This document shows positions 2,564-35,031 of a DNA stretch of 64,000 bases, piece by piece. The DNA is from a candidate division NC10 bacterium CSP1-5. Its GTDB lineage: Bacteria; Methylomirabilota; Methylomirabilia; Methylomirabilales; CSP1-5. Location of the stretch: the NCBI GenBank assembly GCA_001443495.1, contig LDXR01000015.1:13728-77727 (forward strand), written 5' to 3'. Below the pieces are notes generated by a model. That model saw only the letters and a list, made by a program, of their open reading frames with translations, did not search any database and was not told the DNA's origin. Position numbers and translations under genes: made by a program. The number at the start of each line of letters is the position of its first letter. Within the stretch, counting starts at the first letter, position 1.

Positions 2564-4189
2564 CTATCGCCCCTTCTCAATCTGCAGGCGCTGCCAGACC
2601 GAAACCGTCTTCTGTCCATCCCGATCCCCCTGGGCGCCGTCCCAGACCGCAAAGGCCACGGGGAGGGACTGGCCCGGAGTAAATTGCGTATCCCGGTCGC
2701 CCTGCGACTGCATCTCCCTCACCATGACGACCCGCCACTTCCCTCCCTTCCAGATCCCGCGCCCCTGCACGTTCTGGTCCTCTGTGGGTTGGGATGTCAG
2801 CGTGCCGAAGCCCAAAGCGTTCAGGTCCTCCACTGATGAGCGGCGATTTGGGGTCGAGAGAAGGTTGCCGGCTCCCCAGCCAGTGAGGAACGTCGAATCG
2901 TGGGAAGCCGTCGGTGCCTTCACCTGGGCGGTGACCGAGCTTCCTGGGGGGGCGGTTTGATTAAAGGGGTAAAGGTCAGCCGCCATTCCAGCGTAACGGT
3001 CCTGGAGATCCCGGTACCGTTGCAGGTCGGCTTCCCAATCCGCCTTCCAGTGCCAGATGTTGACCGGGCCGTGCTGATCCCCCATGGTGAAGGAGGGTTC
3101 CGGGTGGCCTGCGCCGTGAACCTCGGCCATCGCGACGGGGAATTGAACGGCGACGGCGTCCCGGAAGTCCTGTGACCGTAATACATCCTGATTGATGATC
3201 GAATCATCCCACTCCAGGAGAAATGCGATCTGCTTTCCGTTGTGGACGGATCTCACCCTCACCTCTTCGACCGGTTGCTTGCGGATCCAGAGCGGTTCGA
3301 GGTGGACCCGGACAAAAGGAATCTTCGACCACGCCACGGCAAAGGGGTCGAGGGGGAGACTGCCCGGCACGAACCTCGAGACGACGGTCCCGGGCTGGCT
3401 CGGGGCCGGCTCCGTCAAGGGCGCTTTCGCCAAGGAGAGGGTGTAATAGGCGAGGGCCCACGTCTCTTCCGGCGTGAGGGAGTCACCGTACGCGGGCATC
3501 GGGGTGCCGCCGATCCCCACCTGAAGTGTCCGGTAGACATCCTGCACGGTGGAACCACGTTTCATACGCCCGGGAACCGTAAAGTCGTACGGGACGATGG
3601 AGTACCCCCATTCGTCCTTCAACGTGGCGGCGGAGGGGCCATCCCCCTTGCCGGAGAGCCCGTGGCAGTCGAAGCAACCGGCCTCTTTGTAGAACTTCTT
3701 CCCGAGGGCCAGCAGTCCGGGGCTCCGCGGTGGCGCCTTCGGGATCGCCACCGGATCTCCGGGGCTCTGTGCCTGGAATACCGGCGAAAGACTCTTGATG
3801 TAGGCCACCACCGCCCACCGGTCCTGCTCGGTGAGGGCGGCCCAGGAGGGCATCGACGTCCCGGCGATCCCATTGGTGATGCTGTTGAACAGGTCCTGAT
3901 CGGTCGGCAAGGTCATCGTCGAGTGGATCTTGAACCGGCCGCTGGTGAAGTCCCTCGGCTTCGGGTAGAGGAGATACGCGGCAGACCCGTCCCCCCGCCC
4001 ATCCGTTCCGTGACAGACGGCGCATTTCTTTTCATACAGTGCTTTGCCCTCAGCGAGGATTTCTGGGGTTGCTTGCGCCTTCTCCCCCGCGGTGGCCGAT
4101 AGGATCCCGTGCATAGCGAACCCGGCCAAGGTAAAAACCAACGCCATCCCGATCCCCCTCCAGACCTTGGCTCCCCTCTTCGCGTCCAT
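2564..4189 (-). CDS. NxrC-like dihaem c / haem b electron-transfer subunit
   Basis: Likely gamma subunit that moves electrons between NxrAB and periplasmic cytochrome c. The 541-aa protein has an N-terminal signal/anchor helix (about residues 10-32) and two cytochrome c domains with CXXCH at Cys56 (CAVCH) and Cys172 (CFDCH). Its C-terminal half (about 260-541) resembles the ethylbenzene-dehydrogenase-type haem b domain found in the gamma subunits of type II DMSO-reductase enzymes. The ATG at 4189 is preferred over an upstream in-frame ATG because GGGAGG precedes it and it overlaps the TAA of the chaperone gene by one base, suggesting coupled translation. Fusing class I cytochromes to the haem b domain is notable. 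Confidence 0.85.
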   Translation of the reverse strand: MDAKRGAKVWRGIGMALVFTLAGFAMHGILSATAGEKAQATPEILAEGKALYEKKCAVCHGTDGRGDGSAAYLLYPKPRDFTSGRFKIHSTMTLPTDQDLFNSITNGIAGTSMPSWAALTEQDRWAVVAYIKSLSPVFQAQSPGDPVAIPKAPPRSPGLLALGKKFYKEAGCFDCHGLSGKGDGPSAATLKDEWGYSIVPYDFTVPGRMKRGSTVQDVYRTLQVGIGGTPMPAYGDSLTPEETWALAYYTLSLAKAPLTEPAPSQPGTVVSRFVPGSLPLDPFAVAWSKIPFVRVHLEPLWIRKQPVEEVRVRSVHNGKQIAFLLEWDDSIINQDVLRSQDFRDAVAVQFPVAMAEVHGAGHPEPSFTMGDQHGPVNIWHWKADWEADLQRYRDLQDRYAGMAADLYPFNQTAPPGSSVTAQVKAPTASHDSTFLTGWGAGNLLSTPNRRSSVEDLNALGFGTLTSQPTEDQNVQGRGIWKGGKWRVVMVREMQSQGDRDTQFTPGQSLPVAFAVWDGAQGDRDGQKTVSVWQRLQIEKGR

Positions 4190-4956
4190 TAGTCTTCCTC
4201 CCTTGGCTCGACGGCGCACAGATCGTCCATTCCACAGGAGAAGCAGCCCCCTTCAGGCTCCTGGGGAATTGGCCTGACATCTCCCTCGTGAAACTGAGCA
4301 GGGTTCACCGCGATCCGCCGGCATTCGGCGGTGATGAACGCCTCCAGGGACGAGCCCACAGACCGATAAAAGCCGTCCGAAGCCTTCCGACTCAGGAGCT
4401 GCGCAAAGAGGGGGGCCCAGCACCCGAGGTGCTCCTCCAGAAACTTCCGCTGGGCATCACGGCAGATCGAGGCCTTCTCTTCCCCGTGGTGGGTCAATGC
4501 ATAGGCCTCCTTAAGGGTTAGAAAGCTCATGAACTCCAGTTCGACGGCGATGTGGTCGAGCCGCTCCTTGGCCCGGTCCGACACCTCGACGCCGAAGGCC
4601 CGGTAGAAACCGGCAATGTCACCTAACCGCTGGGCCTGCTGAAAGACGTGGGCGCTGCCGTATTCGGTCTCGTAGGGAGGACATTCCTGCGAGATGGTAT
4701 GGCCGAAAATCTGCCGATATTGCCCCTGAAGAGCGTCCAGGGACAAGTCGTGCGAGGCCATGGCCGTCAACGCCTCCTGTGCTCCGTCACCATCGAGGAG
4801 GGCCGGGAGGATCGGGCGTAGCTCAGAGATGCTTTCTTTCGTAATGCCCGAAGGGAACGCGTCATTCGGGTAGAGGAGGGCAGCCGAGAGGAGCCGATAG
4901 ACGTGACTCCGCGTTATCGCTTCGTGAATCGCCTGTTCAGTTATTTTCCCCGCCAT
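4189..4956 (-). CDS. TorD/NarJ-like molybdoenzyme assembly chaperone
   Basis: A cytoplasmic maturation chaperone that would hold apo-NxrA during cofactor insertion and Tat export. The 255-aa, mostly helical protein shows the TorD/DmsD-like core, including a CPPYETEYG segment near residue 95 typical of this family. Unusually, the C-terminus carries Cys238-x2-Cys241-x5-Cys247 just before an acidic tail, a possible metal site. A GGAGG site precedes the ATG. It sits between nxrB and the nxrC-like gene and overlaps the latter's start by one base. Confidence 0.85.
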   Translation of the reverse strand: MAGKITEQAIHEAITRSHVYRLLSAALLYPNDAFPSGITKESISELRPILPALLDGDGAQEALTAMASHDLSLDALQGQYRQIFGHTISQECPPYETEYGSAHVFQQAQRLGDIAGFYRAFGVEVSDRAKERLDHIAVELEFMSFLTLKEAYALTHHGEEKASICRDAQRKFLEEHLGCWAPLFAQLLSRKASDGFYRSVGSSLEAFITAECRRIAVNPAQFHEGDVRPIPQEPEGGCFSCGMDDLCAVEPREED

Positions 4957-5066
4957 GCGTCAAGTCCTCCGAGGGCGTTGTCATTTCGATGTATCGACCT
5001 GCGGTCGCCTCTCCGGTCTGGCCACAGCGGACGCGGCATGAACGGGAGGATCGGTGTCTGCCTCAT

Positions 5067-6356
5067 TTAGATAGAGTTCGGATGCTTCGCGGGCCGTGTA
5101 TAGACCGGTTCCTCCACCGTGAGGCGCGCAACCTCTGTACCGTTTTTGTCAAAGCCGATGACCGTATCGTTGTACATGCTCCAGGGCTTACCGTTGATCT
5201 CTGTTTCGAAGACCTTCTTGCCTTCGACGATTTCGTAGCGGAAGATGATCTTCTGGGTCGACCGGAAGAGCTGGAGAACGGCCAGCAGCTCTCGGGACGG
5301 GGCCATGTATTTGTTGACAGCGTCGTCTGCCCCGGGACCGAACATTTGCCGCAGATATGCGCGGGGAACCCACCGGGGCGGCATATAATAAATGTTCGGC
5401 TCGGTCCCAAACTGCGGATAGAGGGGCAGGGCGACCTTTTCCACCTTGACCAAGAAGTAGAGGGGATTTGCCCGATCACCGGCCCAGTCTCCGGTGGTCT
5501 GGTCGATCCGGGCCAGGCCCTGGAGTCGGATCTTGCCCACGCAGGCGGCCATGCAGCGCGTTTCGATGGGGACGCCGTCGGGGGTGATGTGCGGGTCCTT
5601 CCCTTCGATGCGCGGGTAGCAGGCGACACATTTTTCGCTGACGCGCGTGGTGCCTCGGTACATCGCCTTCTTGTAGGGACACCCCTCGACGCACTTTTTG
5701 TACCCGCGGCACCGCGACTGATCGATCAGGACCACCCCGTCCTCCTGTCGCTTGTAAATCGCCTTCCTCGGGCAGGCCGCAAGACAGCCGGGATAGGTGC
5801 AGTGGTTACAGATCCGCTGGAGGTGGAAGAACCACGTCTTGTGTTCCGGGAGCGAGACCCCCTCCTTGCTGAACCCCATGCGGTCCCCTTCGTACGGCGG
5901 CGCGGTATCCTCGAAAATGTTGGGGGCCCGCCACTCCTCGTCACCGGGGATGTACCCGAGCGCCCGGGTGTGCCCCTCCGGCCCGTATCGTTTGACGGCC
6001 GCCTCGAAGATGGTCATCCCCTCAAAGACGCCGTAGGGCCTCTGTGCTCCATCCTTCTGGGAGGGATCCCAGGCGGCCTCGCGTCCCTCGCGCTGGTGGG
6101 CCTCGTCGAGCAGTTGCAGCAGCTTCATGTCCCAAAACTGGGGGTAGCCGCCGTACGGCTTGCTTTCGACGTTGTTCCACCACATGTATTCCTGGCCCTT
6201 GGAAAACGTCCAGGTACTCTTGCAGGCCATGGTGCAGGTCTGGCAACCGATGCAACGATTGGTATTGAAGACGGCGGCGAACTGCCAGCGGGGATGCCGT
6301 TCCTCGTACGGGTAGTGCATCTTTCGGCCGAGCTGCCAGTTGTAGACCGTGGGCAT
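5067..6356 (-). CDS. nxrB: nitrite oxidoreductase beta subunit (four Fe-S clusters)
   Basis: Electron-transfer subunit bound to NxrA. At 429 aa it matches the length I know for Nitrospira NxrB. Four cysteine groups are visible: C35/38/41/45, C183/186/191/195, C216-(Tyr219)-C222-C226 and C243/246/268/272. The group with Tyr219 in CRGYKKC corresponds to NarH CRGWRMC, where an aromatic residue replaces a Cys and gives a 3Fe-4S cluster. There is no own signal peptide, so it would be exported with NxrA by the Tat system. A strong AAGGAGG site precedes the ATG. A chlorate- or nitrate-reductase-type beta subunit is the alternative reading. Confidence 0.88.
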   Translation of the reverse strand: MPTVYNWQLGRKMHYPYEERHPRWQFAAVFNTNRCIGCQTCTMACKSTWTFSKGQEYMWWNNVESKPYGGYPQFWDMKLLQLLDEAHQREGREAAWDPSQKDGAQRPYGVFEGMTIFEAAVKRYGPEGHTRALGYIPGDEEWRAPNIFEDTAPPYEGDRMGFSKEGVSLPEHKTWFFHLQRICNHCTYPGCLAACPRKAIYKRQEDGVVLIDQSRCRGYKKCVEGCPYKKAMYRGTTRVSEKCVACYPRIEGKDPHITPDGVPIETRCMAACVGKIRLQGLARIDQTTGDWAGDRANPLYFLVKVEKVALPLYPQFGTEPNIYYMPPRWVPRAYLRQMFGPGADDAVNKYMAPSRELLAVLQLFRSTQKIIFRYEIVEGKKVFETEINGKPWSMYNDTVIGFDKNGTEVARLTVEEPVYTRPAKHPNSI

Positions 6357-6679: not shown

Positions 6680-9600
6680 CTAGCGTTTCTTGATCTGGAC
6701 AATCTCCCCTGCCAGGTAGCGCTTCATGAAGTCGCTTTCGTTCCCGGGTGTGAACCCCGTCCGGGCGGGCTCCCAGATTCCTTTGCCGCGCATCCCTCCG
6801 TCCTCCGCTTTGGTGACCTTGACCAGCGTCTCCTTGGGGACGGTGTTGAGGGCATGGTTGTCTGCCTCCCCGCCGAAGAGAAAGCTCATGGTCGCCTTGG
6901 CCTTGTGGAAGAGGGTGTCGGTCTGATGCATCGGCATATGCCAGTTGCGGGTAAGGGATTGCTGGGAGCCGTACCGAAGATTGGCCTGGTAGCCGGTTTC
7001 GGAGAGGGCCAGGCCGTCGGGCCGGGTCTCGTGTGCCTTGACGGTCCGCTCCGTTGCGATATAGGGGGCATGCTTCATCATCACCACCTGGTAGGGATAG
7101 GCCGGGTTGTACCTCACCCGAACCATGCAGCGGCTCACTCGGTAGAAGGGGTCGCTCGGCTTCCAGCCGATGTAGGGACGATCGGCCGGGTTAGCATCCA
7201 GGTAGACGTAGTCGCCGTCATTGATGCCGAGGTCCTTGGCCGCCTGGGGGTTCATATGCAGCTGGTGATCGCCCACGCCGGGCATCCGCTTGTCCATCCG
7301 GTACGGATCGCCGAAGTTCGAATCCCAGATCTGGTTCCAGTCACACACCGACCACTGCGAGTGGACCCGGTGACGGGTCTTGGGAGTCAGGAAGAAGAAC
7401 CGGTAGCCTTTCTCCCACAGGGGGTTCGTGGTCCGCTTCGCGTCGGCCCACGCCATCTTGATGTTCCGGACCGTCCGCTCGTCCCAATGCATCGCATCCG
7501 GCGAGATGCCGTAGTCCTCGGGACGGATATACGGGTTCGTACTCACGATGACGTTGGGAAGATACGGGGTCGCCTCCGGGCCCTCCCGCTGCACGATGAA
7601 GTTTTCGCCGTACTCGATGGCCTCGGGGATGTCGCAGTAGGCGTGGAGCCTCCCCGTGTCGGTGTAGAAGGGGTCGCTGTCGTGGACCTGCTCCCAGAAG
7701 GGGACCCTTGGATAGGTCCGGAAGAGCATCAGGCAGGCGCCGGGCTCTCCGTACTTGCCGGCCATGATCTCGTCGACCCGATAGCCCGCGGTCGTGGAGG
7801 AGGTGTCGAGGAGCTTCTGGATGTAGACCTCCGGCCTTCCTTCGAGGGCGAAGCGCCAGTACGCCGCGAACCGGTGGTCGTTGACGATCGCGCCGAGCTT
7901 CTGGGCCAACTCGGCCAGGATGGTCACATCGTCCTTGCTGTCGTAGAGGGGCTTGATGCCCCCTTTCCAAATCTGGAGGAAAGGGTTGGAACAGGAGGCG
8001 GTGATCTCGGGGGTCTGGAATTCCATCCAGGAGTTGGCCGGCAGGGCGAAGTCGGCATACTCGATGGAGGCGGTCATCTCGATGTCCACGGAGATGATCA
8101 TCTCCACCCGGGGATTGACGTTCTTCAGCATTTCGTAGACATGCTTGGCGTTGTTAATCAGGTTCACGTTGTTGAAAAACATCACCTTGGTGGGCGTAGG
8201 CATGTGGGTCAGCCCGGTGAACACCTTCCGGCCGTACTTGGGCGTGTTGACGATCAGCGGCAGATCCCCGTGGTTCCAGTAGGCCGGCTCCTCGTCCTTG
8301 GTGTACCCCTTCACCTTAACCGCCTGGCCCGGGGCATTCGGATCGAGGTTGGGGTTAAAGGGATCCTCCGCGACCCACCCCTTGAAGCCGGGCCCACTCC
8401 AGGAGGATCCCTGGAAGAGGGCCGCCTTGTAATTCCCCGCCCAGGTATGGGAGCCCGCTCCCGGGACCCCGATGTTGCCGGTGAGCATCAAGGGGAGGTA
8501 GAAGGCCCGGTTAGACAGGGTGGCGTGGAACCAGTGGTTGATCCCCTCGCCGATATGGATGGCCACCGGCTTGATGGTGGCGATGTCCCGGGCGAGCCGC
8601 TGGATGAGCTCCTTCGGGGAATGGGTGATCTCGTGGACCGTGTCGAGGTCGTAGTCCTTGAGATGAATTGTGTACATGGCCCACAGGGTCATCGCCTCGA
8701 CCTCGGTCCCATCTGCGAGTTTGACCTTCCCCTGCCAATCGAGGGTCGGGTCGGTTCCCTGCTGGGCGAGCCTGTCACCTACGTCTTCTCTAGTGAGGGG
8801 CTTCAGGCTTTGGCTTTTTGCATCGAAGACAACAAAGTCCCCGAGCTTCTCGTACTGCTCCTTCGTGAGACCCTGGATCGTGAAGCTGGGGCCGTTCTCG
8901 GGCAGCCGCCCGCGATATCCCGGGAAGACCTCGTGGGCCCTGAGCCGTTTGAGGGTGTCCGTCCGGACAAGGAGCGGGAAATCGGTGAAGCGCTTCACGA
9001 AGGCCGCGTCGTAGTGCCTCTCCTCCATGAGAATTTTGGTGAGGCCCAGGAAGAGGGCGGTATCGGTGTTGGGGCGGATCGGGATCCAGTAGTCGGCCTT
9101 GGCGGCCGGAGGGCTGTATTCTGGCGTGATAACCACGATCTTCGCCCCGCGCTCCATCAGCTCGTTAAAGAAATGGGACTCGGGCATCTTGTTCTCGATC
9201 AAGTTTTTCCCGCACTGGATGTGGAGCTTCGAGAAGCGGAAGTCGTTAAGGTCGACGTCGGACCCCTGCAACCCATGGGAGTAAGGATGGCCCGGCGCCT
9301 GATCGCCGTGCCAGGTATAGTTCGACCAGGTCCGGCCGCCGAGCGCCTGATCGGGTCCCACGCCCCGGACATGGACATCCAACAGGGCCAGCGTGTTGGC
9401 AAAGCGGTACATGCCATACTTTCCGATCACGCCCAGAAGGCCCATACCGCCGCGGCACTTGAAGGTCCGCGTCCCCGCCCCGTGCGTCTCTCGGATCATC
9501 TCCTCCGGGTATCCTTGCTCGCGCAGGCGACGCACGCCCTCTTCGCCGCTATAGCGCCTGGCAATCTGGATCATCCCCTTCGCAATGTACGAGTACGCGT

Positions 9601-10123
9601 CGTCCCAGGAGATTCGCATGAGTTCGTCCGTGCCCCGACTGTCGAACCTGTACTTGGTCTTGTTTGCGGGCGTCAGGTCGGGGAAGCCGTCGTCGGCCCA
9701 CCGCTTCCAGCCTTTACGGACCAAGGGGTATTTCACCCGGTAGGGACCGTAGACCCTTCGGTGCAACGTGTATCCCTTGAGGCATCCCCTCGGGTTCCAG
9801 TGGGGGGTTGCCTTGTTGCCGTAGAGGTCGGCGTAGCGGCTGACGTCGTAGTTCTGCTCGATCCGCATCACCACGCCGTTTCGGACATACGCCCTCAGTC
9901 GGCAGGCATGCGTATCGTTGGGCGAGCAGACGAAGGTAAACGTGCGATCGTAGCCGTACTGATCCCGGTAGATCCGTTCCCACCCTCGATCCGGGTACTC
10001 CGAGAGGGGATTGCCCACCTCGACGGCGGGCTGGAGCAGCCGGAGAGCCCAGGCGTCATCGGCGAGGAAGGCGGTGGCACCGGTCGCGGCCGCTTTCAGA
10101 AAAGTCCTGCGGGTGATTTCCAT
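6680..10123 (-). CDS. nxrA: nitrite oxidoreductase alpha subunit, periplasmic NxrA type
   Basis: Molybdo-bis-MGD catalytic subunit, 1147 aa, matching the length I know for Nitrospira NxrA. The N-terminal TRRTFLKAAATGA is a Tat signal, placing the enzyme in the periplasm. FS0 ligands are Cys66-x3-Asp70-x3-Cys74 and Cys114 (NPRGC); NarG has His-x3-Cys-x3-Cys, so the first two ligands differ. The molybdenum-ligand Asp274 lies in NYTWHGDQAPGHP, aligned to the NarG ligand in YCDLPP. Likely reaction: nitrite oxidation to nitrate, reversible. It heads the nxrA-orf91-nxrB-chaperone-nxrC group. Periplasmic NarG or a (per)chlorate reductase are related alternatives. Confidence 0.9.
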   Translation of the reverse strand: MEITRRTFLKAAATGATAFLADDAWALRLLQPAVEVGNPLSEYPDRGWERIYRDQYGYDRTFTFVCSPNDTHACRLRAYVRNGVVMRIEQNYDVSRYADLYGNKATPHWNPRGCLKGYTLHRRVYGPYRVKYPLVRKGWKRWADDGFPDLTPANKTKYRFDSRGTDELMRISWDDAYSYIAKGMIQIARRYSGEEGVRRLREQGYPEEMIRETHGAGTRTFKCRGGMGLLGVIGKYGMYRFANTLALLDVHVRGVGPDQALGGRTWSNYTWHGDQAPGHPYSHGLQGSDVDLNDFRFSKLHIQCGKNLIENKMPESHFFNELMERGAKIVVITPEYSPPAAKADYWIPIRPNTDTALFLGLTKILMEERHYDAAFVKRFTDFPLLVRTDTLKRLRAHEVFPGYRGRLPENGPSFTIQGLTKEQYEKLGDFVVFDAKSQSLKPLTREDVGDRLAQQGTDPTLDWQGKVKLADGTEVEAMTLWAMYTIHLKDYDLDTVHEITHSPKELIQRLARDIATIKPVAIHIGEGINHWFHATLSNRAFYLPLMLTGNIGVPGAGSHTWAGNYKAALFQGSSWSGPGFKGWVAEDPFNPNLDPNAPGQAVKVKGYTKDEEPAYWNHGDLPLIVNTPKYGRKVFTGLTHMPTPTKVMFFNNVNLINNAKHVYEMLKNVNPRVEMIISVDIEMTASIEYADFALPANSWMEFQTPEITASCSNPFLQIWKGGIKPLYDSKDDVTILAELAQKLGAIVNDHRFAAYWRFALEGRPEVYIQKLLDTSSTTAGYRVDEIMAGKYGEPGACLMLFRTYPRVPFWEQVHDSDPFYTDTGRLHAYCDIPEAIEYGENFIVQREGPEATPYLPNVIVSTNPYIRPEDYGISPDAMHWDERTVRNIKMAWADAKRTTNPLWEKGYRFFFLTPKTRHRVHSQWSVCDWNQIWDSNFGDPYRMDKRMPGVGDHQLHMNPQAAKDLGINDGDYVYLDANPADRPYIGWKPSDPFYRVSRCMVRVRYNPAYPYQVVMMKHAPYIATERTVKAHETRPDGLALSETGYQANLRYGSQQSLTRNWHMPMHQTDTLFHKAKATMSFLFGGEADNHALNTVPKETLVKVTKAEDGGMRGKGIWEPARTGFTPGNESDFMKRYLAGEIVQIKKR

Positions 10124-10214: not shown

Positions 10215-11135
10215 TCAACGCGTCCCCTGGCAGACGGTATATCCTTCCACGCATCGCTCGCACGCGCCGAGCTCCGGTTGCCATTCCGGAAAGTCACACT
10301 GGATCAGTTCCACCAGCGGGAGCGGGATCTCTCCGCTTCCCTGTCGGAAGGACCGGGAGGGGAAGCGGCAGAGCGGGCAGCGGGAGCCCGGGAGCGAACG
10401 AATGGTCCCCTCCCACGCCTCGAAGAGGGCTCGACCCGGCTCGGTCGCCATTTCCAAGAGTTGCGGGTGCGATGGCCGGGGCATGTCCCAGGTTCGTCTA
10501 AAGGCCTTCTCCAGCAAGGGAGCGGGAACTCCCCGGTACTGGGCCTCGAACTCCGCCCGGCGTTGGGCCTCGGCGGCGACCGTCTCGCGCCCAGCCTGGA
10601 TGAGGCGGCTATCGATGGTGATGTCCCACAACAGGCGGTAGCGATCTCGAACGAGCGGCTCCTCGGCTAGGTGGATCCCGGGAATCCCCTCGGTGTGCTC
10701 ATAGGCGAAGGTCGGATCCAGCACATCGCTCAGGTGGGTCAGCTCGTGGCGGAGGAGTCGGGTGAGACTGAGCGGGTCAAGAAAGCGACGAGGGAGCAGG
10801 CGGAGGATCGCTGCGGTCCGCCCTGGAAACTGCAGGTCGGCCCCTTCATCCCTAGCGCCCGGGGCCCGCACGACCCACAGGGTCTGGATGTGCTCGCGAA
10901 GCTCGGGAAACTCCGTGAAGGCCGCTTCGATCGGCGCCGCAAGATTCCACCGGCGGAACAGGCGTCGGTGGATCTGCTGGAAAGCCTCCTCACGCGCGGC
11001 GAGGTCGAGGCGGTATGCGGCATCGGTGAGGGCGTGGTACTCGTGGGTAAAGTGCAAATCACCGGTCGCCTCGCGTTCCTGGATCAGCGCCGAGACAACC
11101 GCATCGAGGAGGACCGGCTCATACCGAATCTGCAT
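10215..11135 (-). CDS. unknown protein with HExxH motif and C-terminal CxxC pairs
   Basis: A 306-aa protein I cannot assign. It has His130-Glu131-Leu-Thr-His134 in a helix (LLRHELTHLSD), the classical zinc-metallopeptidase motif. The C-terminal third has two cysteine pairs (CPLC and CERC) that could form a zinc ribbon. No signal peptide or membrane segment is seen. Its start lies inside the end of the Rrf2 regulator gene (17-bp overlap) and nxrA follows 91 bp downstream. It could be a metallopeptidase or a metal-binding maturation factor for NXR. Conservation of the third metal ligand cannot be judged here. Confidence 0.75.
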   Translation of the reverse strand: MQIRYEPVLLDAVVSALIQEREATGDLHFTHEYHALTDAAYRLDLAAREEAFQQIHRRLFRRWNLAAPIEAAFTEFPELREHIQTLWVVRAPGARDEGADLQFPGRTAAILRLLPRRFLDPLSLTRLLRHELTHLSDVLDPTFAYEHTEGIPGIHLAEEPLVRDRYRLLWDITIDSRLIQAGRETVAAEAQRRAEFEAQYRGVPAPLLEKAFRRTWDMPRPSHPQLLEMATEPGRALFEAWEGTIRSLPGSRCPLCRFPSRSFRQGSGEIPLPLVELIQCDFPEWQPELGACERCVEGYTVCQGTR

Positions 11136-11544
11136 CCTCTCCTCCGTTCTGGGCCAGGCTGGCGAGGGTCATGGTCTCCAGGAACTCGGTGAGGTAGGGC
11201 TTGATCTCGCGCCAGCCGGCATGAAGAAGGCACGGGTTCCTGTCACCGCATCGACGCCCCCAGAAGATACAGCGTTCGGTGAGATCTGCTCCCTCGATCG
11301 CCTCCAGCACCTCCCGGAGGCGGATCTGGGAGGGGGCGCGGGCCAGGCAATACCCGCGCTGACGTCCGCGGAAAGACTGGAGCACTCCGTGCCGCGCAAG
11401 CTTCTGAAGGGTCTTGGCCAGGAAGCCGACCGGCAGATCCTTCGCCTCGGCGATCTGGTGCAGCGTCAGGACCGTCGCCGGCGGCTGCTGAGCCAAGTAA
11501 ATCATGGCCTTCAGTCCGTATTCGCTCTCGCGGCTGAGATGCAT
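11119..11544 (-). CDS. Rrf2-family Fe-S transcriptional regulator (NsrR/IscR-like)
   Basis: A 141-aa winged-helix regulator starting MHLSRESEYGLKAMIYLA, the standard Rrf2 N-terminus. Three cysteines at 92, 99 and 105 match the IscR/NsrR cluster-binding positions (92, 98, 104 in IscR), so it probably carries an Fe-S cluster and senses NO, redox or iron status. A GGGGAG site precedes the ATG. It overlaps the upstream membrane-protein gene by 34 bp and the downstream HExxH gene by 17 bp. Its position upstream of nxrA makes it the best candidate local regulator. Confidence 0.88.
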   Translation of the reverse strand: MHLSRESEYGLKAMIYLAQQPPATVLTLHQIAEAKDLPVGFLAKTLQKLARHGVLQSFRGRQRGYCLARAPSQIRLREVLEAIEGADLTERCIFWGRRCGDRNPCLLHAGWREIKPYLTEFLETMTLASLAQNGGEDADSV

Positions 11545-12284: not shown

Positions 12285-14021
12285 CTACCCGGCTGTCGCC
12301 GGTCGCGCTTGCACCGGGCGGTCCTGGGGGAACCAGTCCTCGGGGGCCTCCGGTGAGCTGTACTCGTAGGGGCCACGGTGGACCACCGGGATGACCTCGA
12401 AGTTGCTGTGGGGGGGCGGTGACGGGGTGGTCCACTCTAACGTATTGGCCGCCCAGGGATTCGAAGCCGCTTTTTCGCCCGCCCAGAGGCTCCAGAGGAA
12501 GTTGACGACGAAGGGGAGCTGGCCCAAGAAGAGGAGGATCGCGCCGATCGTGATGAAGATGTTGAGCGGCTGGAGCGGCTTCAGGAAGTCATACTGCAGG
12601 GGGTTCGCGATCCGCCGCATCATCCCTCCGGCGCCGAGGAAGAACATGGGAAAGAAGACGGCGTTGAAGAATACGAAGGTCATCCAGAAATGAATCTTCC
12701 CCAGGGTCTCGTGCATCATGCGGCCGAACATTTTTGGGTACCAGTAGTAGATCGCGGCGAAACCGCCGAAGAAAATCGCGCTGAACAGTGTGTAGTGGAA
12801 GTGAGCCACGACGAAGTAGGTGTCGTGGATGTAGATGTCGGCGGGTGCCGAGCCGTTGAAGATGCCGGTCAGGCCCCCCACGATGAAGACGGTCAGGGTC
12901 CCCAGGGCAAAAAGCATCGGTGTCGGGAACCGGATCGATCCCCGCCAGAGGGTGGCGATCATGGCGAAGACGATGATGGCGAACGGGACGGAGATGAGGA
13001 TCGTGGTGATACTGAACGGCATCGCCAGCCGGGGATCCATGCCGCTCGGGAACATATGGTGGGCCCAGACGAGGAAGCTCAGGAGGCCCGCGGCGATGGT
13101 CGAGTAGACGATGGGGCGATAGCCGAAGATCGGCTTTCGGGAAAAGACGGGGAGGATCTCCAGCGAGGCGCCCATCCCGGGCAGCATGATGACGTAGACC
13201 TCCGGGTGGCCGAAGAACCAGAAGAGGTGTTGCCACAGGAGCGGTTGGCCGCCGCCCTCCGGCAGGAAGAAGCTGGTCCCCGCCAGCCGGTCAAGCAGCA
13301 GCATCACGGCCCCTGCGATGAGGGGTCCCACGGAGAGCATGAACAGGACGGCGGCGGTGAACTGCATCCAGATCATGAGGGGCAGTCGGAATAGGGAAAG
13401 GCCGGGCGCCCGCATGTTGATGGTGGTCGTGAGAAAGTTGATTCCACCCATGAGGAATGAGGCGAACTCGAGGGCGAGGGCGATGATCCACAGGTTCTGT
13501 CCCCACTCCACCCCCGTGTAGATCGCTTTGGCGGAAAGGGGCGGATAGGCGGTCCAACCCGAGGCCGCGGCGCCACCGGGGACGAAGAAGGAAATGAGGA
13601 GCACGAGGGAGGACAGGGCCAGAGTCCAGACAGAGAGCATGTTGAGTCGGGGGAAGGCCATGTCCCGGGCGCCGATCATGAGGGGGATGAGAAAGTTGCC
13701 GAACGCTCCCAAGAGAATGGGCATGGCGACGAAGAAGACCATGATCGTGCCATGCATCGTCACCACCATGTTGTAAAACTCGGGGGGCACGATGCCCCCG
13801 ACCATGGAGGGCTCGGGTACCCAGCCGAACCCCGGCACCGCCGTGTCAGGATACGCCAGTTGCCACCGCATCACATAGGCCAGCAGGCCCCCCACGATGG
13901 CCCAGAAGAGCCCGATGGCGAGGTACTGCTTGGCGATCGTCTTATGATCTGTGGAGAAGACATACGTGCGCCAGAGGCCCAGCGCCTCGTCATGGGCATG
14001 GGGCTTTATGGACTCGCTCAT
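12285..14021 (-). CDS. haem-copper oxidase subunit I, K-channel lysine missing (CoxA1)
   Basis: A 578-aa A-type subunit I. All metal ligands are present: His90 and His409 (low-spin haem), His407 (high-spin haem), His272, His321 and His322 (CuB). Tyr276 follows in HPEVY, the cross-linked Tyr position. D-channel residues Asn109, Asp120, Asn127 and Glu274 are conserved. The K-channel stretch, VPTGIK in Rhodobacter, reads VPFAII: Thr359 is replaced by Phe347 and Lys362 by Ile350. The paralogue at 31379-33136 keeps the lysine. It overlaps coxB1 by 4 bp (ATGA), and no subunit III follows. Oxygen reduction by a standard mechanism is therefore uncertain. Confidence 0.92.
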   Translation of the reverse strand: MSESIKPHAHDEALGLWRTYVFSTDHKTIAKQYLAIGLFWAIVGGLLAYVMRWQLAYPDTAVPGFGWVPEPSMVGGIVPPEFYNMVVTMHGTIMVFFVAMPILLGAFGNFLIPLMIGARDMAFPRLNMLSVWTLALSSLVLLISFFVPGGAAASGWTAYPPLSAKAIYTGVEWGQNLWIIALALEFASFLMGGINFLTTTINMRAPGLSLFRLPLMIWMQFTAAVLFMLSVGPLIAGAVMLLLDRLAGTSFFLPEGGGQPLLWQHLFWFFGHPEVYVIMLPGMGASLEILPVFSRKPIFGYRPIVYSTIAAGLLSFLVWAHHMFPSGMDPRLAMPFSITTILISVPFAIIVFAMIATLWRGSIRFPTPMLFALGTLTVFIVGGLTGIFNGSAPADIYIHDTYFVVAHFHYTLFSAIFFGGFAAIYYWYPKMFGRMMHETLGKIHFWMTFVFFNAVFFPMFFLGAGGMMRRIANPLQYDFLKPLQPLNIFITIGAILLFLGQLPFVVNFLWSLWAGEKAASNPWAANTLEWTTPSPPPHSNFEVIPVVHRGPYEYSSPEAPEDWFPQDRPVQARPATAG

Positions 14022-14746
14022 GGCCTTCTATCCTCCGGCTCACCGCTGATCGCTGACAGCCGAGCGCTGCTGCTCTGCGGGGAGGGCCAGGTGCGCTTCA
14101 GCCATGCCTCGTAGTCGTCGGCGGAGTGGACGGTGAGGTGCCCCACCATGCCTGAGTGCCCGAATCCGCACAGCTCAGCGCAAGGAATTTCGTACACCCC
14201 GGGCTTGGTGGCTTCAAACCAGGCCTCGATCTCTCGGCCCGGTACGACATCCTGCTTCAGGCGCAGGTTGGGGAGAAAGAAGCTGTGGATCACATCCTTC
14301 GATTTCAGGGTCACGCGCGCGACCTTACCGACGGGGACGTGTAACTCGTTGTCCAATTGCAAATCATCCGCCGTCCCGAACTGCCCGTCCGGCCCAGGAT
14401 AGAGGATCTCCCAATTGAACTGCTTGGCGGTCAATTGGACCCGGACATCAGCAGGGGGCATGTGGCCCTTGACCGCCTCCCAGACCTCCGCCCCACGAAA
14501 GTCGATCCAGAGATCCAGTCCCAAAACGATCACCACTGGAACGAGAATCCAGGCGCTCTGGTCTAAGGTGTTTCCATGGACGTAGGTGGCCGGGCGGCCT
14601 TCGCGGCGGCGATACAGGAAGAGGAACAGGACAATGGTTCCAAGCGTAAGGAAAAACCAGGCCCCGGTGATGTAATAGATCAGATACAGAATGGAGTCGA
14701 TATCTCCACCGTAAGTAGAGACATTCTCGGGAAGCCAACTCAGCAT
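14018..14746 (-). CDS. cytochrome c oxidase subunit II with CuA (CoxB1)
   Basis: Delivers electrons from cytochrome c through CuA. Two N-terminal membrane helices are followed by a cupredoxin domain with CAELCGFGHSGM (two Cys, His, Met) and an upstream His in VIHSFFLP. An inserted loop PGPDGQFGTADD precedes the DNELHVP strand, as in the second copy. I chose ATG at 14746 because MLSWLPENVSTYGG aligns with the start of CoxB2. An upstream ATG at 14845 lacks a ribosome site. The C-terminal 20 residues are encoded by a 7-bp-period repeat (14041-14075), so the tail looks appended. Confidence 0.88.
   Translation of the reverse strand: MLSWLPENVSTYGGDIDSILYLIYYITGAWFFLTLGTIVLFLFLYRRREGRPATYVHGNTLDQSAWILVPVVIVLGLDLWIDFRGAEVWEAVKGHMPPADVRVQLTAKQFNWEILYPGPDGQFGTADDLQLDNELHVPVGKVARVTLKSKDVIHSFFLPNLRLKQDVVPGREIEAWFEATKPGVYEIPCAELCGFGHSGMVGHLTVHSADDYEAWLKRTWPSPQSSSARLSAISGEPEDRRP
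14041..14075. repeat. heptameric degenerate tandem repeat inside coxB1 3' end
   Basis: Units on the plus strand: CACCGCT, GATCGCT, GACAGCC, GAGCGCT, GCTGCTC. The period is 7 bp with strong variation between units. It belongs to the same class as the intergenic repeats at 30440, 50378, 50465, 50521, 53815, 56149 and 63549. Confidence 0.6.
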
Positions 14747-14999
14747 TCGGAGATCTCCGGCGTTTTCGGGGTTCACGTGTAACAACCGGCCCGGATCAGG
14801 TCCGAGAATCCGACTGCCCCCCGCAGACAAGACCACACGTTTCATATCGTTTCAATGACGAGGGTCAGCGAGAAAGCTGATCCTGATCATGTCGATGCCG
14901 GGGACGGGCTGCCCCGTATGCGGGACCGAACTGGGCCCGCGAACAGGGCAACGCCTGTAGGATCTGCGTCTGGTTTGGTGGGGTGCGGCAGATCAGGCC

Positions 15000-18597: not shown

Positions 18598-19263
18598 TCA
18601 CTGGGGGTCTTCCTCGCCGAAGACCTCATGGAGCACGTCCTGGAGCGGCCCATGCCGCCCGGTGAAGATCGGGGTGTCGCGGCGGGTGTACAGTCGACCC
18701 GCCGTGCTCCGGAGGGCGGTGACCAGCTCGGAAAAGCGTTTCAGGTCATCCGTTTCGTATCCCACCACGAACTCCCAGTCAGCAATCCCGGTAGAGTAGA
18801 CCAGCACCTGGTCGATCTCTGTGAAGGCGTGCCCCACCCGAGCGTGGTCCTTCATCATGGCCCGCCGGTCATCGGCAGAAAGCTGGTACCAGTCATGGGT
18901 CTTGATGAACGGGTAGACCACCAGATAGCGTTTCCGTTCTCCTGGCACCTGGACGCTGATGCCGCTCTGGCCGGTGTACTGCGAGGGGCGCACGTAGCCC
19001 CAGAGGCTCGCCGTCAGTTCCAGGTTCGTCCGGAGAAAGCGGCCGCCCACCCATTGATAGGCCTCGATCTCATCCGTCGCCAGCCAGAATCCCAGGTCCG
19101 CCGAGGCGCGGAGCCCCACAAGGCTGTAGGGGTACAGCGCCACGACCCCTGGGAATTTCTGGGCTTCTTCCGTCGCACGCCGGACCTGCTCCCTCATCTC
19201 GGGCGTGCGCAGCCCTTGGGGAACCCGGAAATAGAGAAACCCATGCACCTGTATCTCAGTCAT
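18598..19263 (-). CDS. hemQ: HemQ/ChdC-like coprohaem decarboxylase of the chlorite dismutase family
   Basis: A 221-aa chlorite-dismutase-family protein. His140 (MMKDH) is the likely proximal haem ligand. Where true chlorite dismutases have the distal Arg before the STG motif, Gln152 is found here (DQVLVYSTG), and Tyr117 (VVYPF) matches the catalytic Tyr region of coprohaem decarboxylases. My alignment has a one-residue shift between His and Gln, so the Gln match is probable, not certain. The ATG at 19263 has a GAGGGAG site. With hemE and a Bacillus-type hemH nearby, coprohaem decarboxylation to haem b is the likely role. Confidence 0.82.
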   Translation of the reverse strand: MTEIQVHGFLYFRVPQGLRTPEMREQVRRATEEAQKFPGVVALYPYSLVGLRASADLGFWLATDEIEAYQWVGGRFLRTNLELTASLWGYVRPSQYTGQSGISVQVPGERKRYLVVYPFIKTHDWYQLSADDRRAMMKDHARVGHAFTEIDQVLVYSTGIADWEFVVGYETDDLKRFSELVTALRSTAGRLYTRRDTPIFTGRHGPLQDVLHEVFGEEDPQ

Positions 19264-19542
19264 TTTGCCGTCTCCCTCCTCAGGGGGTGACACAAACCCG
19301 CATCGTACTATATGCCCCGAGGCCATCCGGGGTCAACCGAATCTGTGGAGGGGAGGCGGTCTTGATCTTGCATGGGGAGGAGCGATCCGGCCCGAATCAT
19401 GCTATGGTATGGGGAGCGGCGACGCAAGCAGTCGGGGTGCAGACAAGGGCCTTGCGCGCGTCGTTTCAATGGGCGACAACCATACACAGGAAGCGCTGGC
19501 CGACGCCGGCCAGTGCCTCCCAGCGATGAACGGAACTGAGCA

Positions 19543-22256: not shown

Positions 22257-22511
22257 ATGCGCCTCGTCGGAGAAGTTCGTGATGGGCGATTCATCCGCCG
22301 GTTGACCCGCTTCTCTGGTGAGGCCCTTCTCGGTCAGAGGCGCGTGCGCGCCCACATTCCCCATTCAGGACGACTGGGAGAACTCCTCGTTCCGGGAAGG
22401 CGCGTCCTCCTCCGCCGAGAGAGGGGAAAGAGTCGGAAGACAGCACATGATCTCGTCCATGCCCTTCCCGTTTTTCTCACACGTGAAGGCGACGTGGTCG
22501 AGAGGAAATAA
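22257..22511 (+). CDS. truncated SfsA-like protein (N-terminal domain only)
   Basis: An 84-aa frame with GEVRDGRFIRRLTRF, AHIPHSGRLGELL and GRRVLLR resembles the N-terminal OB-like domain of SfsA, which is normally about 230-240 aa. After about residue 68 the similarity ends and a stop follows. The stop overlaps the next start (TAATG), so translation may be coupled to the NnrS-like gene. Either a decayed sfsA or a retained short domain; I cannot find the rest of SfsA nearby. Confidence 0.55.
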   Translation: MRLVGEVRDGRFIRRLTRFSGEALLGQRRVRAHIPHSGRLGELLVPGRRVLLRRERGKSRKTAHDLVHALPVFLTREGDVVERK

Positions 22512-23923
22512 TGAGTACCCTACCAGTTATTTCCGATCCCAAAACCACGCAGGCCGAGTTTCAGATCGGCTACATCTGGGTGGCCCTCGCCACCGCAGTA
22601 TTTGCCGGATTTGCCATCGGCGCCCATCTGGCGTTTATCATTGGATTCGATTTTTCCCTCGGGAGGGGGTTTGCCGGCCTGGTCCAGACGCATGGGCACG
22701 TACAACTCGTCGGCTGGGCCGGTCTCTTCATGATTGGGATCAGCCTTCACATTATTCCGCGGCTGGCGAGCGTCCCGATAGCCAACCCCCGATGGATCCC
22801 ACGGATCCTGTGGCTCATGGCGGGGGGCCTCTTGCTTCGCAGTCTTGCCCATCCGACCCTCGCGTATCGCGGCGAGAGCGCCTTTGGATACTGGGCCGTG
22901 GTGGGTTCGGGTCTCTTGGAGTGGGGCGGCGTAGGAATCTACGTGACCCTGCTTCTCCGGACCCTGCGAGGCGTCAGAGATGCCAAGAGGCAACCGGCGC
23001 TCTTGTCAGTTCGGCCCTTTTTCGCCACCATGTTGGCCGGCTGGATGCTCTATGCGTCGATCAACCTTCTGCTGCTCTTCGACATGGCTTGGCGCGGGGA
23101 CGTGGTGATGGACCCGGCCTGGAATCAATTCGACATTGAGATCTTTATCGGTCTCGTGTTGCTTCCCGTGGCCTTCGCTTTTTCGTCCCGCATGCTTCCC
23201 TTATATCTCGCACTCCGTGCTCCGGACTGGCCGGTCCGCGGGACGGCATACGCCTATGTCGTCTCCCTGGCTGTCCAGGTGATCCCATCGATCCCCCTCG
23301 TTTCCGGACTGGATCCCGAGGTCGCCCGCATCGTATCCAGTCTAGGATCGCTCCTCAAAGGAGGGGTCATCCTCTGGTTTGTGTGGCAGCTGGACATCCT
23401 GACACGGTGCTGGGATGCGTGGACGGTGAAACGGGAGGTTGCGCCGCTCCCCGACAAGCGGCCCGCGCGGTGGGGCCTGCCGGATTATGGAGAATTCGGC
23501 CGGTTTGAACGATTGGTGTATGCGGCGTACACCTGGCTCGTCCTTGCCGCACTTTTCGAGATGCTCGTCGGAGGGGCCAGCCTGTTGGGGAACCCGCTGC
23601 CGATCGCCACGGACGCCATCCGGCACATGGTCCTCCTGGGCTTCATCACCCACCTGATCTTCGGCGTGTCGGTCCGTGTGATCCCAGGCTTGCTCAAGAA
23701 GCGATGTGTGGCCAGTGTCCGATTAGTGGATGCAACCTTTTGGCTGGGGAGTACAGCGGCGGCCTGCCGCGTACTGCCTTTGCTTGCCCCGTCGAGTCTC
23801 ATCGACGCGGTTCCCGGAAGCGCCCTCATTGCGCAAGCCGCCTTCGGCTTTTCGGGGATGATCGGGTTGGTGGCCGTCACGTGCCTGGCCATGAACTTGT
23901 GGAAGACGGCGGTGGCGGAATGA
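22511..23923 (+). CDS. NnrS-like multi-helix membrane protein
   Basis: A 470-aa protein with about twelve hydrophobic helices. The segment QTHGHVQLVGWAGLFMIGI, and later RHMVLLGFITHLIFGVSVRV, recall NnrS, a haem/copper membrane protein linked to NO stress in denitrifiers. Conserved histidines in helices 2, 3 and 10 could bind haem. It begins at the TAATG junction with the SfsA fragment. The match is from motif recognition only, so the assignment is moderate; a divergent haem-copper-oxidase-like subunit is the alternative. Confidence 0.6.
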   Translation: MSTLPVISDPKTTQAEFQIGYIWVALATAVFAGFAIGAHLAFIIGFDFSLGRGFAGLVQTHGHVQLVGWAGLFMIGISLHIIPRLASVPIANPRWIPRILWLMAGGLLLRSLAHPTLAYRGESAFGYWAVVGSGLLEWGGVGIYVTLLLRTLRGVRDAKRQPALLSVRPFFATMLAGWMLYASINLLLLFDMAWRGDVVMDPAWNQFDIEIFIGLVLLPVAFAFSSRMLPLYLALRAPDWPVRGTAYAYVVSLAVQVIPSIPLVSGLDPEVARIVSSLGSLLKGGVILWFVWQLDILTRCWDAWTVKREVAPLPDKRPARWGLPDYGEFGRFERLVYAAYTWLVLAALFEMLVGGASLLGNPLPIATDAIRHMVLLGFITHLIFGVSVRVIPGLLKKRCVASVRLVDATFWLGSTAAACRVLPLLAPSSLIDAVPGSALIAQAAFGFSGMIGLVAVTCLAMNLWKTAVAE

Positions 23924-30630: not shown

Positions 30631-31299
30631 ATGTGGGATATGTTAAGCTGGCTGCCGGAGAATGTCTCCACATACGGCGGCGAGATCGACTCCCTCTTTT
30701 ACATCATCTATTATATTACCGGCGTGGCCTTCCTCCTCGTGGCGTTCGCCATGATCGCCTTTGTCATCATGTTCCGGCATCGGGAGGGTCGCCGCGCCAC
30801 GTACCTGCACGGCAATACCGTAATTGAGATCACCTGGACCATTGTCACCGCCGTGATCTTTGTCGTGCTCGCCTTTATGAGCCAGCCCCTCTGGGGAAGG
30901 ATCAAGCAAGAGGTCCCACCGACGGATCTGCAGGTCCGCATCACCGCCAAGCAGTTCAACTGGGAGATCGTCTATCCCGGGCCGGACGGGAAGTTCGACA
31001 CGGCGGACGATCTGCAAGTCGACAACGAGCTGCACGTCCCGGTCAATCGGGCTGTGCATGTCTTCCTGGCCTCGAAGGATGTCATTCACAGCTTTTTCCT
31101 TCCGCAGCTTCGACTGAAACAGGATGCCGTTCCCGGCCGCGTGATCCAGGCCTGGTTCCAGGCGACCAAGACCGGCAGGTATGAGATCCCCTGTGCCGAG
31201 CTGTGCGGGTTCGGGCACTCCGGGATGCTCGGCTACCTGACCGTGTACTCCCCCGAAGAGTACAGCAAGTGGGTCAAGGAGCAATGGCCTTCCCGGTGA
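30631..31299 (+). CDS. cytochrome c oxidase subunit II with CuA (CoxB2)
   Basis: A 222-aa CuA subunit with two N-terminal helices (about 17-42 and 65-87). The CuA ligands are His in VIHSFFLPQ and CAELCGFGHSGM. The loop PGPDGKFDTADD is an acidic insertion before DNELHVP, shared with CoxB1. The ATG is preceded by GGAGAGAG. It starts the complete cox operon and is 79 bp upstream of coxA2. Confidence 0.93.
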   Translation: MWDMLSWLPENVSTYGGEIDSLFYIIYYITGVAFLLVAFAMIAFVIMFRHREGRRATYLHGNTVIEITWTIVTAVIFVVLAFMSQPLWGRIKQEVPPTDLQVRITAKQFNWEIVYPGPDGKFDTADDLQVDNELHVPVNRAVHVFLASKDVIHSFFLPQLRLKQDAVPGRVIQAWFQATKTGRYEIPCAELCGFGHSGMLGYLTVYSPEEYSKWVKEQWPSR

Positions 31300-31378: not shown

Positions 31379-33136
31379 ATGATGAGTGAATCTGCGGGGG
31401 TCCACGCCGTGCATGGGGCACACGTCCATCATGAAGAGCTGGGCTTTGTGCGCACGTACGTCTTTGCGACAGATCATAAGATGATCGGCAGGCAGTTCCT
31501 CTTCCTCGGCCTCTTCATGTTGGTGATCGGCGGCCTGTTGGCGATGTTGATGCGCTGGCAGCTCGGCTGGCCAGAGACGCCGGTGCCCGGAATGGGTTGG
31601 GTGCCGGAACCGTACATGTTCGAGGGGATCGTCCCGCCGCAGACCTACAACATGCTCTTCACCATGCACGCCACGATCATGATCTTCTTCGCGGTCATGC
31701 CCATCATGATCGGCTGTTTCGGCAATTTCCTCATCCCGCTCATGATCGGCGCCCGGGACATGGCCTTTCCCGTCCTAAACATGCTCTCCTTCTGGAGCGG
31801 CGCGGTGGGGGGGGTGGTGATGCTGGCGGGGTTCTTCGTCCCCGGGGGACACGCGGCCAGCGGCTGGACCGCGTACGCGCCGCTCAGCGCCAGTGCGATC
31901 TACACCGGGGTGGACTGGGGCCAGAACCTCTGGAATATCAGCCTCATTATCGTTGGTGCCTCTTCGCTCATGGGGTCGATCAACTACATCACGACCATCA
32001 TCAATATGCGGGCCCCGGGCATGACCTGGTTCCGGCTCCCGCTCGTGATCTGGTCCCTCTTCGTCACCGCGATCCTCCTCTTGCTGGCCCTGCCGGTGCT
32101 GACCGCGGCGCTGGCCATGCTCCTGGCCGATCGGATGCTCGGGACCCACTTTTTCCTCCCTGCCGGTGGGGGTGAGCCCCTGCTGTGGCAGCACCTGTTC
32201 TGGTACTTCGGGCATCCGGAGGTCTACGTCCTGGTCCTTCCCGCCATGGGGGTCACCTCGGATGTCCTCTCCACCTTCTCGCGCAAGCCGATTTTCGGCT
32301 ACCGCGCCATGGCCATGTCCATGATTTCCATCGGCTTCCTCAGTTGGATCGTGTGGGGTCATCACATGTTTCTCAGCGGGATGAATCCGGCGTTGGGAAC
32401 CGCCTTCATGATGTCGACGATGGTGATCGCGGTCCCCTCAGCCATCAAGACCTTTAACTGGCTCGGCACGCTGTGGGGAGGCTCGATTCGGTTGACCACG
32501 CCAATGCTGAATGGTCTCGCGTTTGTGTCCATCTTCGTGATCGGAGGGCTGAGTGGCGTCTTCATGGCGTCGACCCCGGTGGACATTTTCATCCACGACA
32601 CGTACTTCATCGTGGCCCATTTCCACTACGTCGTCGCGGGCATCGTCTTTGGCCTGTTCGCGGCCGTCTACTATTGGTTTCCCAAGATGTTTGGCCGGAT
32701 GATGAACGAGACGCTCGGGAAGATCCACTTTGTCCTCACCTTCATCTTCTTTAACGCCACCTTCTTTCCGATGCACTTCCTTGGCGTGGCCGGACACATG
32801 CGGCGGATCTGGAATCCCCTCCAGTACGAGTTTCTCCAGCCGCTTCAGGGGATGAATCAATTCATCAGTGTGAGTGCGTTCCTCCTCGGCCTCTCGCAGA
32901 TCCTGTTCCTCGTCAACTTCTTCTGGAGCCTGTTTGCTGGGAAGAAGGCGGAGGTGAATCCCTGGCATGCCAATACCTTGGAATGGGCGGCTCCCTCTCC
33001 GCCGCCACACGGCAACTGGGGGGAACATCTCCCGGTCGTGCACCACGGCCCGTACGAGTACAGTGTACCGGGCGTGGAGGAAGACTATCTGCCGCAGACG
33101 ACGCCGCATGCCCTCCCCGTAACGGCGGGGCATTGA
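31379..33136 (+). CDS. cytochrome c oxidase subunit I, A1 type (CoxA2)
   Basis: A 585-aa subunit I with full canonical sites: His97 (low-spin haem), His279/His328/His329 (CuB), Glu281 and Tyr283 in HPEVY, and the VAHFHY haem ligands. D-channel Asn116, Asp127 and Asn134 are present. The K-channel segment reads VPSAIK with Lys357, unlike CoxA1. Predicted to be a proton-pumping oxygen reductase. An AGGAG site precedes two consecutive ATG codons; the first is used here. Confidence 0.94.
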   Translation: MMSESAGVHAVHGAHVHHEELGFVRTYVFATDHKMIGRQFLFLGLFMLVIGGLLAMLMRWQLGWPETPVPGMGWVPEPYMFEGIVPPQTYNMLFTMHATIMIFFAVMPIMIGCFGNFLIPLMIGARDMAFPVLNMLSFWSGAVGGVVMLAGFFVPGGHAASGWTAYAPLSASAIYTGVDWGQNLWNISLIIVGASSLMGSINYITTIINMRAPGMTWFRLPLVIWSLFVTAILLLLALPVLTAALAMLLADRMLGTHFFLPAGGGEPLLWQHLFWYFGHPEVYVLVLPAMGVTSDVLSTFSRKPIFGYRAMAMSMISIGFLSWIVWGHHMFLSGMNPALGTAFMMSTMVIAVPSAIKTFNWLGTLWGGSIRLTTPMLNGLAFVSIFVIGGLSGVFMASTPVDIFIHDTYFIVAHFHYVVAGIVFGLFAAVYYWFPKMFGRMMNETLGKIHFVLTFIFFNATFFPMHFLGVAGHMRRIWNPLQYEFLQPLQGMNQFISVSAFLLGLSQILFLVNFFWSLFAGKKAEVNPWHANTLEWAAPSPPPHGNWGEHLPVVHHGPYEYSVPGVEEDYLPQTTPHALPVTAGH

Positions 33137-33147
33137 GGACTGCCCGA

Positions 33148-34971: not shown

Positions 34972-35031
34972 GTGGGCGATGGTATTGGTTGACTATTGAA
35001 GAGAGTTGGAAGGGGCATTCGCCGAGGAGAT

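Follow-up and report, generated by a model that had tools for sequence, protein, structure and literature searches.

The lysine of the K-channel is a textbook requirement of A-family haem-copper oxidases, and its mutation blocks reduction of haem a3. How, then, might an oxidase operate whose subunit I carries no such lysine? The question is raised by two minus-strand genes in the window (i.e. the whole 64,000-nucleotide stretch of DNA analysed here), which stems from CSP1-5, an NC10/Methylomirabilota bacterium with a genome of 2.77 Mb and, as nearest relative, a genome annotated as Ca. Methylomirabilis sp. (L004). The first gene, coxA1 (12285..14021), encodes an A-family subunit I of 578 residues with an ATG start, recognised by profile (PF00115, E=7e-146), alignment and an AF2 model. 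Its start overlaps the stop of coxB1 (14018..14845), which encodes a subunit II with CuA ligands (PF00116, and above the TIGR02866 cut-off). We put the probability at roughly one in two that CoxA1B1 is an aa3-type cytochrome c oxidase that reduces O2 and takes up its K-channel proton by another route.

Residues were mapped onto P. denitrificans COX1 (the sequence of PDB 1ar1), the reference's own landmark residues being confirmed. The original prediction held that all haem and CuB ligands, the Tyr of the HPEVY motif and the D-channel residues Asn109, Asp120, Asn127 and Glu274 are retained in CoxA1, and the alignment agrees: H90, H272, H321, H322, H407, H409 and Y276 are invariant over 61 homologues, Y276 corresponds to Y280 of P. 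denitrificans, and N109/D120/N127/E274 correspond to D-channel N113/D124/N131/E278. From the A1 D-channel set (D124, N113, N131, N199, Y35, S134, S193 and E278) CoxA1 lacks only S193, replaced by a Phe that is also seen in some K-bearing Acidobacteria. The predicted CuA site is likewise present, its His/Cys/Cys/His/Met ligands being kept in 34 of 34 subunit II sequences from the main clade of lysine-lacking (K-less) enzymes. The AF2 model of CoxA1 (mean pLDDT 89.9, pTM 0.91) finds its best PDB matches by Foldseek in the Rhodobacter and Paracoccus cytochrome c oxidases (TM 0.83-0.92), the top one being the K362M structure 3om3. The model confirms the cytochrome c oxidase fold and carries no information on the proton route. 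CoxA1 scores 619.6 against the CtaD_CoxA equivalog TIGR02891, below the curated cut-off of 670.75, as does the K-bearing paralogue CoxA2 (648.5).

At the K-channel, L287, F347 and I350 stand at P. denitrificans S291, T351 and K354, equivalent to Rhodobacter S299, T359 and K362 (minus-strand codons 13161..13163 for L287 and 12972..12983 for F347-I350). The loss of Thr359 and Lys362 had been predicted, and the actual loss is larger, as Ser299 and the channel-entrance Glu of subunit II are also gone; in addition, position 348 has changed from Ala to Ser, a Glu (E185) has entered the D-channel and an Asp (D111) lies in TM2 of CoxB1. Q96 of CoxB1 (14558..14560, minus strand) takes the place of the entrance Glu (E101-II in Rhodobacter), which is retained by nine of 34 main-clade members as compared with all 54 K-bearing sequences. 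Judged by alignment, the whole lower K-channel, comprising this Glu together with the Lys, Thr, Ser and Trp of subunit I, is gone in CoxA1 and across its clade. The possibility that the lysine has moved elsewhere in helix VIII, named at the outset as grounds for refutation, was ruled out within subunit I: the helix reads ISVPFAIIVF in CoxA1 as compared with IAVPSAIKTF, the invariant Pro fixes the register, and there is no basic residue close by. The paralogue 17 kb away, used as a control, does keep its lysine as predicted (VPSAIK; coxA2 at 31379..33136, plus strand, with its partner coxB2 at 30631-31299).

Chance and sequencing or annotation error can be discarded as the source of the K-less state, since many genomes have it, 42 sequences of a single clade share it (some at ~55% identity), and comparison of CoxA1 with its nearest relative gives dN 0.068 and dS 0.85. 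The corresponding dN/dS of ~0.08 shows CoxA1 to be under strong purifying selection. This selection, as well as the conservation of the new acidic residues described below, speaks against a slow or auxiliary oxidase (for O2 scavenging, or peroxidase-like) in which K-channel loss is tolerated at low turnover. Such a role would fit the presence of an additional K-bearing A-family or other haem-copper enzyme in most K-less hosts, and K-channel mutants still carry out the oxidative phase (PMC12901375). However, the K-less enzyme L129 is the only A-family oxidase in its genome (G026, probably that of Ca. Methylomirabilis oxyfera), and we regard the slow-oxidase explanation as improbable.

K-less CoxA proteins were found, counting the full-length matches retrieved, in ~20 of the 60 NC10 relatives searched, and in seven of 18 genomes in a search of the Nitrospinota-type phylum. 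Their hosts include Deltaproteobacteria, Nitrospinota/NOB MAGs, Tectomicrobia, SAR324, Bdellovibrionota, Opitutales and others. In the phylogeny CoxA1 is nested among K-bearing family A enzymes. The main K-less clade has 42 members, from NC10, Nitrospinota, Deltaproteobacteria, Bdellovibrionota and Opitutales, and forms one branch (SH-aLRT 100; 100/100 in a careful tree of 54 rows). L194 branches at its base, and the two together are the sister group of the CoxA2-like K-bearing enzymes, with more K-bearing groups outside. L194 (G027:C65) is itself K-less, lies between the K-bearing and the E185-bearing clades, and has an nxrA gene on the same contig. A further 13 K-less sequences are placed elsewhere in the tree, intermixed with K-bearing Acidobacteria. 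Supported branches force at least four changes of K-state, and a single origin was recovered in 0 of 200 bootstrap trees; the acidobacterial cases may be either losses or regains.

Two residue changes accompany the loss of the lysine throughout and can be considered candidate replacements; a third is confined to the main clade. Across 112 CoxA sequences, position 348 (P. denitrificans numbering) is Ala or Gly in 59/59 K-bearing and Ser or Thr in 53/53 K-less enzymes; every enzyme with a hydrophobic residue at 354 has the Ser or Thr. CoxA1 has S344 here (12990..12992, minus strand), at the position of Rhodobacter A356, one of the residues delimiting the K-channel (PMC10341450). The second change lies in subunit II, where an Asp or Glu is found inside TM2 in all 47 K-less but none of the 54 K-bearing sequences, 11-12 residues ahead of the Trp at the periplasmic end of the helix. 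In CoxB1 this carboxylate is D111 (14513..14515, minus strand), 11 residues before Trp122. Further K-less enzymes (L190, L194, L196, L197 and L199) and further K-bearing sequences follow the same rule. Helix periodicity and depth suggest that D111 faces subunit I, the depth (near residue 348) being approximate because TM2 of the main-clade K-less enzymes has ~4 extra residues.

The third residue, E185 of CoxA1 (13467..13469, minus strand; P. denitrificans 189), occupies the position of Rhodobacter S197, which is among those delimiting the D-channel (PMC10341450). A Glu at this position is absent from 59/59 K-bearing CoxA and is invariant in the 42-member K-less clade only, where the Rhodobacter S201 position has also become Phe. 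L194, which has lost the lysine and has Ser348 and the TM2 acid, has no Glu at 189, and E185 therefore seems to be a later addition. As it is confined to the main clade, and missing from L194 and the 13 other K-less enzymes, E185 was rejected as a general stand-in for the lysine.

Fisher p-values for these associations are tiny, though they count sequences without correction for descent; with only four K-state switches the covariation cannot reach significance once descent is taken into account (sign test, p=0.25 with 3 pairs). Two relatives of the same class, L191 and L193, count against the covariation model. Both carry K354Q along with D124N, keep T351 and S291, and have neither gained Ser348 (Ala is retained) nor any subunit II acid that could be seen. 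By their sequences they form a separate type, in which the two proton channels are both altered in another manner.

How could a proton reach the active site of CoxA1B1? Canonical enzymes depend strictly on the K path for a single proton, that of the O to E step in which the oxidised site is first reduced (PMC12901375), hence a substitute has to carry one proton per cycle. We propose that, with the lower K-channel dismantled from the entrance Glu onwards, D111 in TM2 of subunit II would lie roughly level with Ser344, newly gained on the side of helix VIII that faces the K-channel, and would pass a proton on to Tyr276 for reduction of the haem a3-CuB site. Among the candidates for the route, the subunit II carboxylate together with Ser/Thr348 ranks first. 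An acidic residue of subunit II is thus the likely functional substitute for the lysine, one that inspection of subunit I alone cannot reveal. E185, predicted to lie below E274, would have arisen afterwards in the clade of the window, where it may raise the capacity of the D-channel or alter pumping. More generally, and a little more tentatively than for CoxA1B1 itself, family A may have replaced its K-channel repeatedly by a relay from a TM2 carboxylate of subunit II via a helix VIII hydroxyl to the active-site Tyr, with one large clade then adding a second D-channel Glu. The expectation that the proton path has changed in this family is well supported by the clade-wide loss of the lower K-channel and the candidate replacements that appear alongside. 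Two further observations weigh against a rerouted oxidase, namely the precedent of R. sphaeroides and P. denitrificans, where haem a3 reduction requires the lysine (PMC12901375), and a local gene cluster without subunit III.

The main rival to the subunit II route has no K-channel replacement at all: every proton would arrive via the D-channel, aided by E185 as a second buried carboxylate, while the subunit II Asp would merely form a pair with some other residue, the nearly invariant R331 being one possibility. Such an enzyme might not pump, to judge from acidic mutations at other D-channel positions that cause decoupling. Canonical enzymes already route 7/8 protons through the D-channel, and D-channel decoupling mutations rescue an early step in lysine mutants (PMC12901375); moreover, E185 is invariant in the main clade and missing from all K-bearing enzymes. 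However, it is the subunit II acid and Ser/Thr348 that accompany lysine loss, and the D-channel Glu is lacking in L194 as well as in every one of the 13 other K-less enzymes, so that it is not needed for that loss. Exclusive use of the D-channel is unlikely in our judgement, although it deserves to be taken seriously.

The aa3 oxidases of Paracoccus and Rhodobacter (A1 type) share with CoxA1B1 the fold (~42% identity over the model), the His ligands, the Tyr, the GHPEVY D-channel and CuA. They differ in having the K-channel Lys, Thr, Ser and Trp, in the entrance Glu-II (Gln in CoxB1), and in lacking Ser348, the TM2-II acid, the Glu at S197 and the Phe at S201. Proton uptake also departs from the two-channel A type in the B and C types (ba3, cbb3), which have no active D-channel and use a K-analogue; CoxA1 keeps the D-channel N, D, N and E and has lost the lower K path, and on sequence it falls outside both types. 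Loss of the K-channel within family A is already known from archaea, according to the accessible portion of a 2021 study, which describes archaeal COX1 without the canonical K-channel, seven losses under one scenario, and K-channel variants (PMC8239418). That portion describes no subunit II carboxylate, Ser/Thr348 or the present bacterial clade.

The closest described counterpart is the aa3 oxidase of Ca. M. oxyfera (Damo_1162-1166 in the accessible text of PMC6094997), which belongs to the same K-less clade if, as is probable, the genome carrying L129 is that of M. oxyfera. Unlike that of CoxA1, its cluster includes a subunit III gene as well as a small COX4-like one, and has no nxr neighbours. 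In its account of NC10 CSP1-5, the same text has the nar/nxr genes running to XU15_C0015G0018 and labels the oxidase at G0022-23 'A1' and that at G0039-42 'A2'. Counting genes from nxrA in the window reproduces these numbers (nxrA 18, coxA/B 22-23, second cox 39-42), so that coxA1/coxB1 are very probably XU15_C0015G0022-23, for which the available text gives the type label and, as far as found there, no comment on the K-channel. For this K-less clade of bacteria, its D-channel Glu and the carboxylate in subunit II, a search of the open literature returned no description; priority is uncertain, a 2020 review by the author of PMC8239418 lying outside that search.

If correct, the proposed rerouting means that oxidases in nature can do without the K-channel lysine, and provides suppressors of the classic K362M defect that are ready for use. 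With a wide natural family that lacks the lysine and has covarying residues, the question of why there are two channels becomes testable by residue swaps. The family is also of interest for NC10 and Nitrospinota bacteria, where cytochrome oxidase genes are usually listed by type alone. The pattern suggests that the K-less enzyme was re-plumbed in the course of evolution, and that it has neither become defunct nor switched substrate.

A different substrate, such as NO, had been put forward in the original prediction. The surroundings of the locus lend this some appeal: the minus strand carries, in order, coxB1, coxA1, a gene for a 177-aa membrane protein, an Rrf2-family regulator with three Cys (11119..11544, identified by profile match), a gene for a 306-aa protein, nxrA, nxrB, narJ and an EB_dh/cytochrome c gene. 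The nxrA/narG-type molybdopterin subunit (6680..10123; PF00384, TIGR03479 sub-threshold) belongs to the same gene run, as do its accessory genes (2564..6356) for the 4Fe-4S beta subunit (5067-6356), the NarJ-type chaperone (4189-4956) and the EB_dh/cytochrome c protein (2564-4219). Both the nitrite/nitrate oxidoreductase-type neighbours and the NC10 and Nitrospinota hosts would suit an NO reductase or NO-handling enzyme of nitrogen-cycling bacteria, and the Rrf2 family includes NO sensors. However, CoxA1B1 keeps the D-channel, CuA and the cross-linking Tyr, a residue missing in typical NO reductases. The NOR motifs H-X-arom-X-E and HH-X-arom-arom-X17-E (PMC3084760) are absent, CoxA1 having HPEVY and HHMFP instead. 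Clusters of relatives contain coxC and ctaA/ctaB, the clade also occurs in Bdellovibrionota, Opitutales and SAR324, and M. oxyfera is listed, in the accessible text of PMC6094997, with one cytochrome c oxidase beside separate qNOR, sNOR and gNOR genes. NO as the substrate is thus unsupported and we consider it very unlikely; the retained Tyr276 and CuA, the coxC and ctaA/ctaB genes of relatives, the absence of NOR motifs, the family A placement and the cytochrome c oxidase fold favour an O2-reducing cytochrome c oxidase.

Electrons for such an oxidase would probably come from cytochrome c, and in CSP1-5 plausibly from the adjoining nitrite oxidoreductase-type complex. A locus from another family of the order (L119) has nxrA, nxrB, narJ, a homologue of the 306-aa protein, rrf2, coxB1, coxA1, coxC, ctaA and ctaB, showing that the linkage is conserved in places. 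Neighbouring nxr and cox genes occur in G009 and in the further K-less case G027, and an Rrf2 gene adjoins K-less coxBA at at least nine other loci. The majority of K-less loci have no nxr neighbour, and an exclusive tie to nitrite oxidation is not supported, given that a K-bearing oxidase adjoins nxr in G021 and that the K-less enzyme of M. oxyfera occurs without such an nxr.

Subunit III had been reported as missing, which holds for the local CoxA1 cluster and not beyond it: in relatives coxC immediately follows coxA, and within the window the CoxA2 cluster has two COX3 genes (34989-35738 and 36110-36694, plus strand). The coxC genes adjoining K-less coxA fall into a separate clade and hence appear to be dedicated partners; ctaA/ctaB are present in several K-less clusters. 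Neither COX3 gene of the window falls in this clade, and the one at 36110 is accordingly not supported as a displaced partner of CoxA1. A COX3 search of the genome gave no match beyond these two.

Several other genes of the window merit mention. The 306-aa protein (10215-11135, minus strand), encoded between nxrA and rrf2, has an HExxH motif (HELTH) and C-terminal Cys pairs, and no Pfam match. Part of a second NxrA/NarG-type subunit (window 1-2210, minus strand; G000:C15:12501-15938) is 47% identical to that at 6680-10123. A single 662-aa ORF (32983-34971, plus strand) looks like a CtaA-CtaB fusion, combining haem A and haem O synthases. A 470-aa membrane protein (22511-23923, plus strand), upstream of Rieske/cytochrome b genes, has a sub-threshold COX1 match (PF00115, 33.1 vs 34.8 bits). 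Finally, a chlorite dismutase-family protein (18598-19326, minus strand) adjoins hemE/hemH-like genes and may be HemQ, not a true chlorite dismutase.
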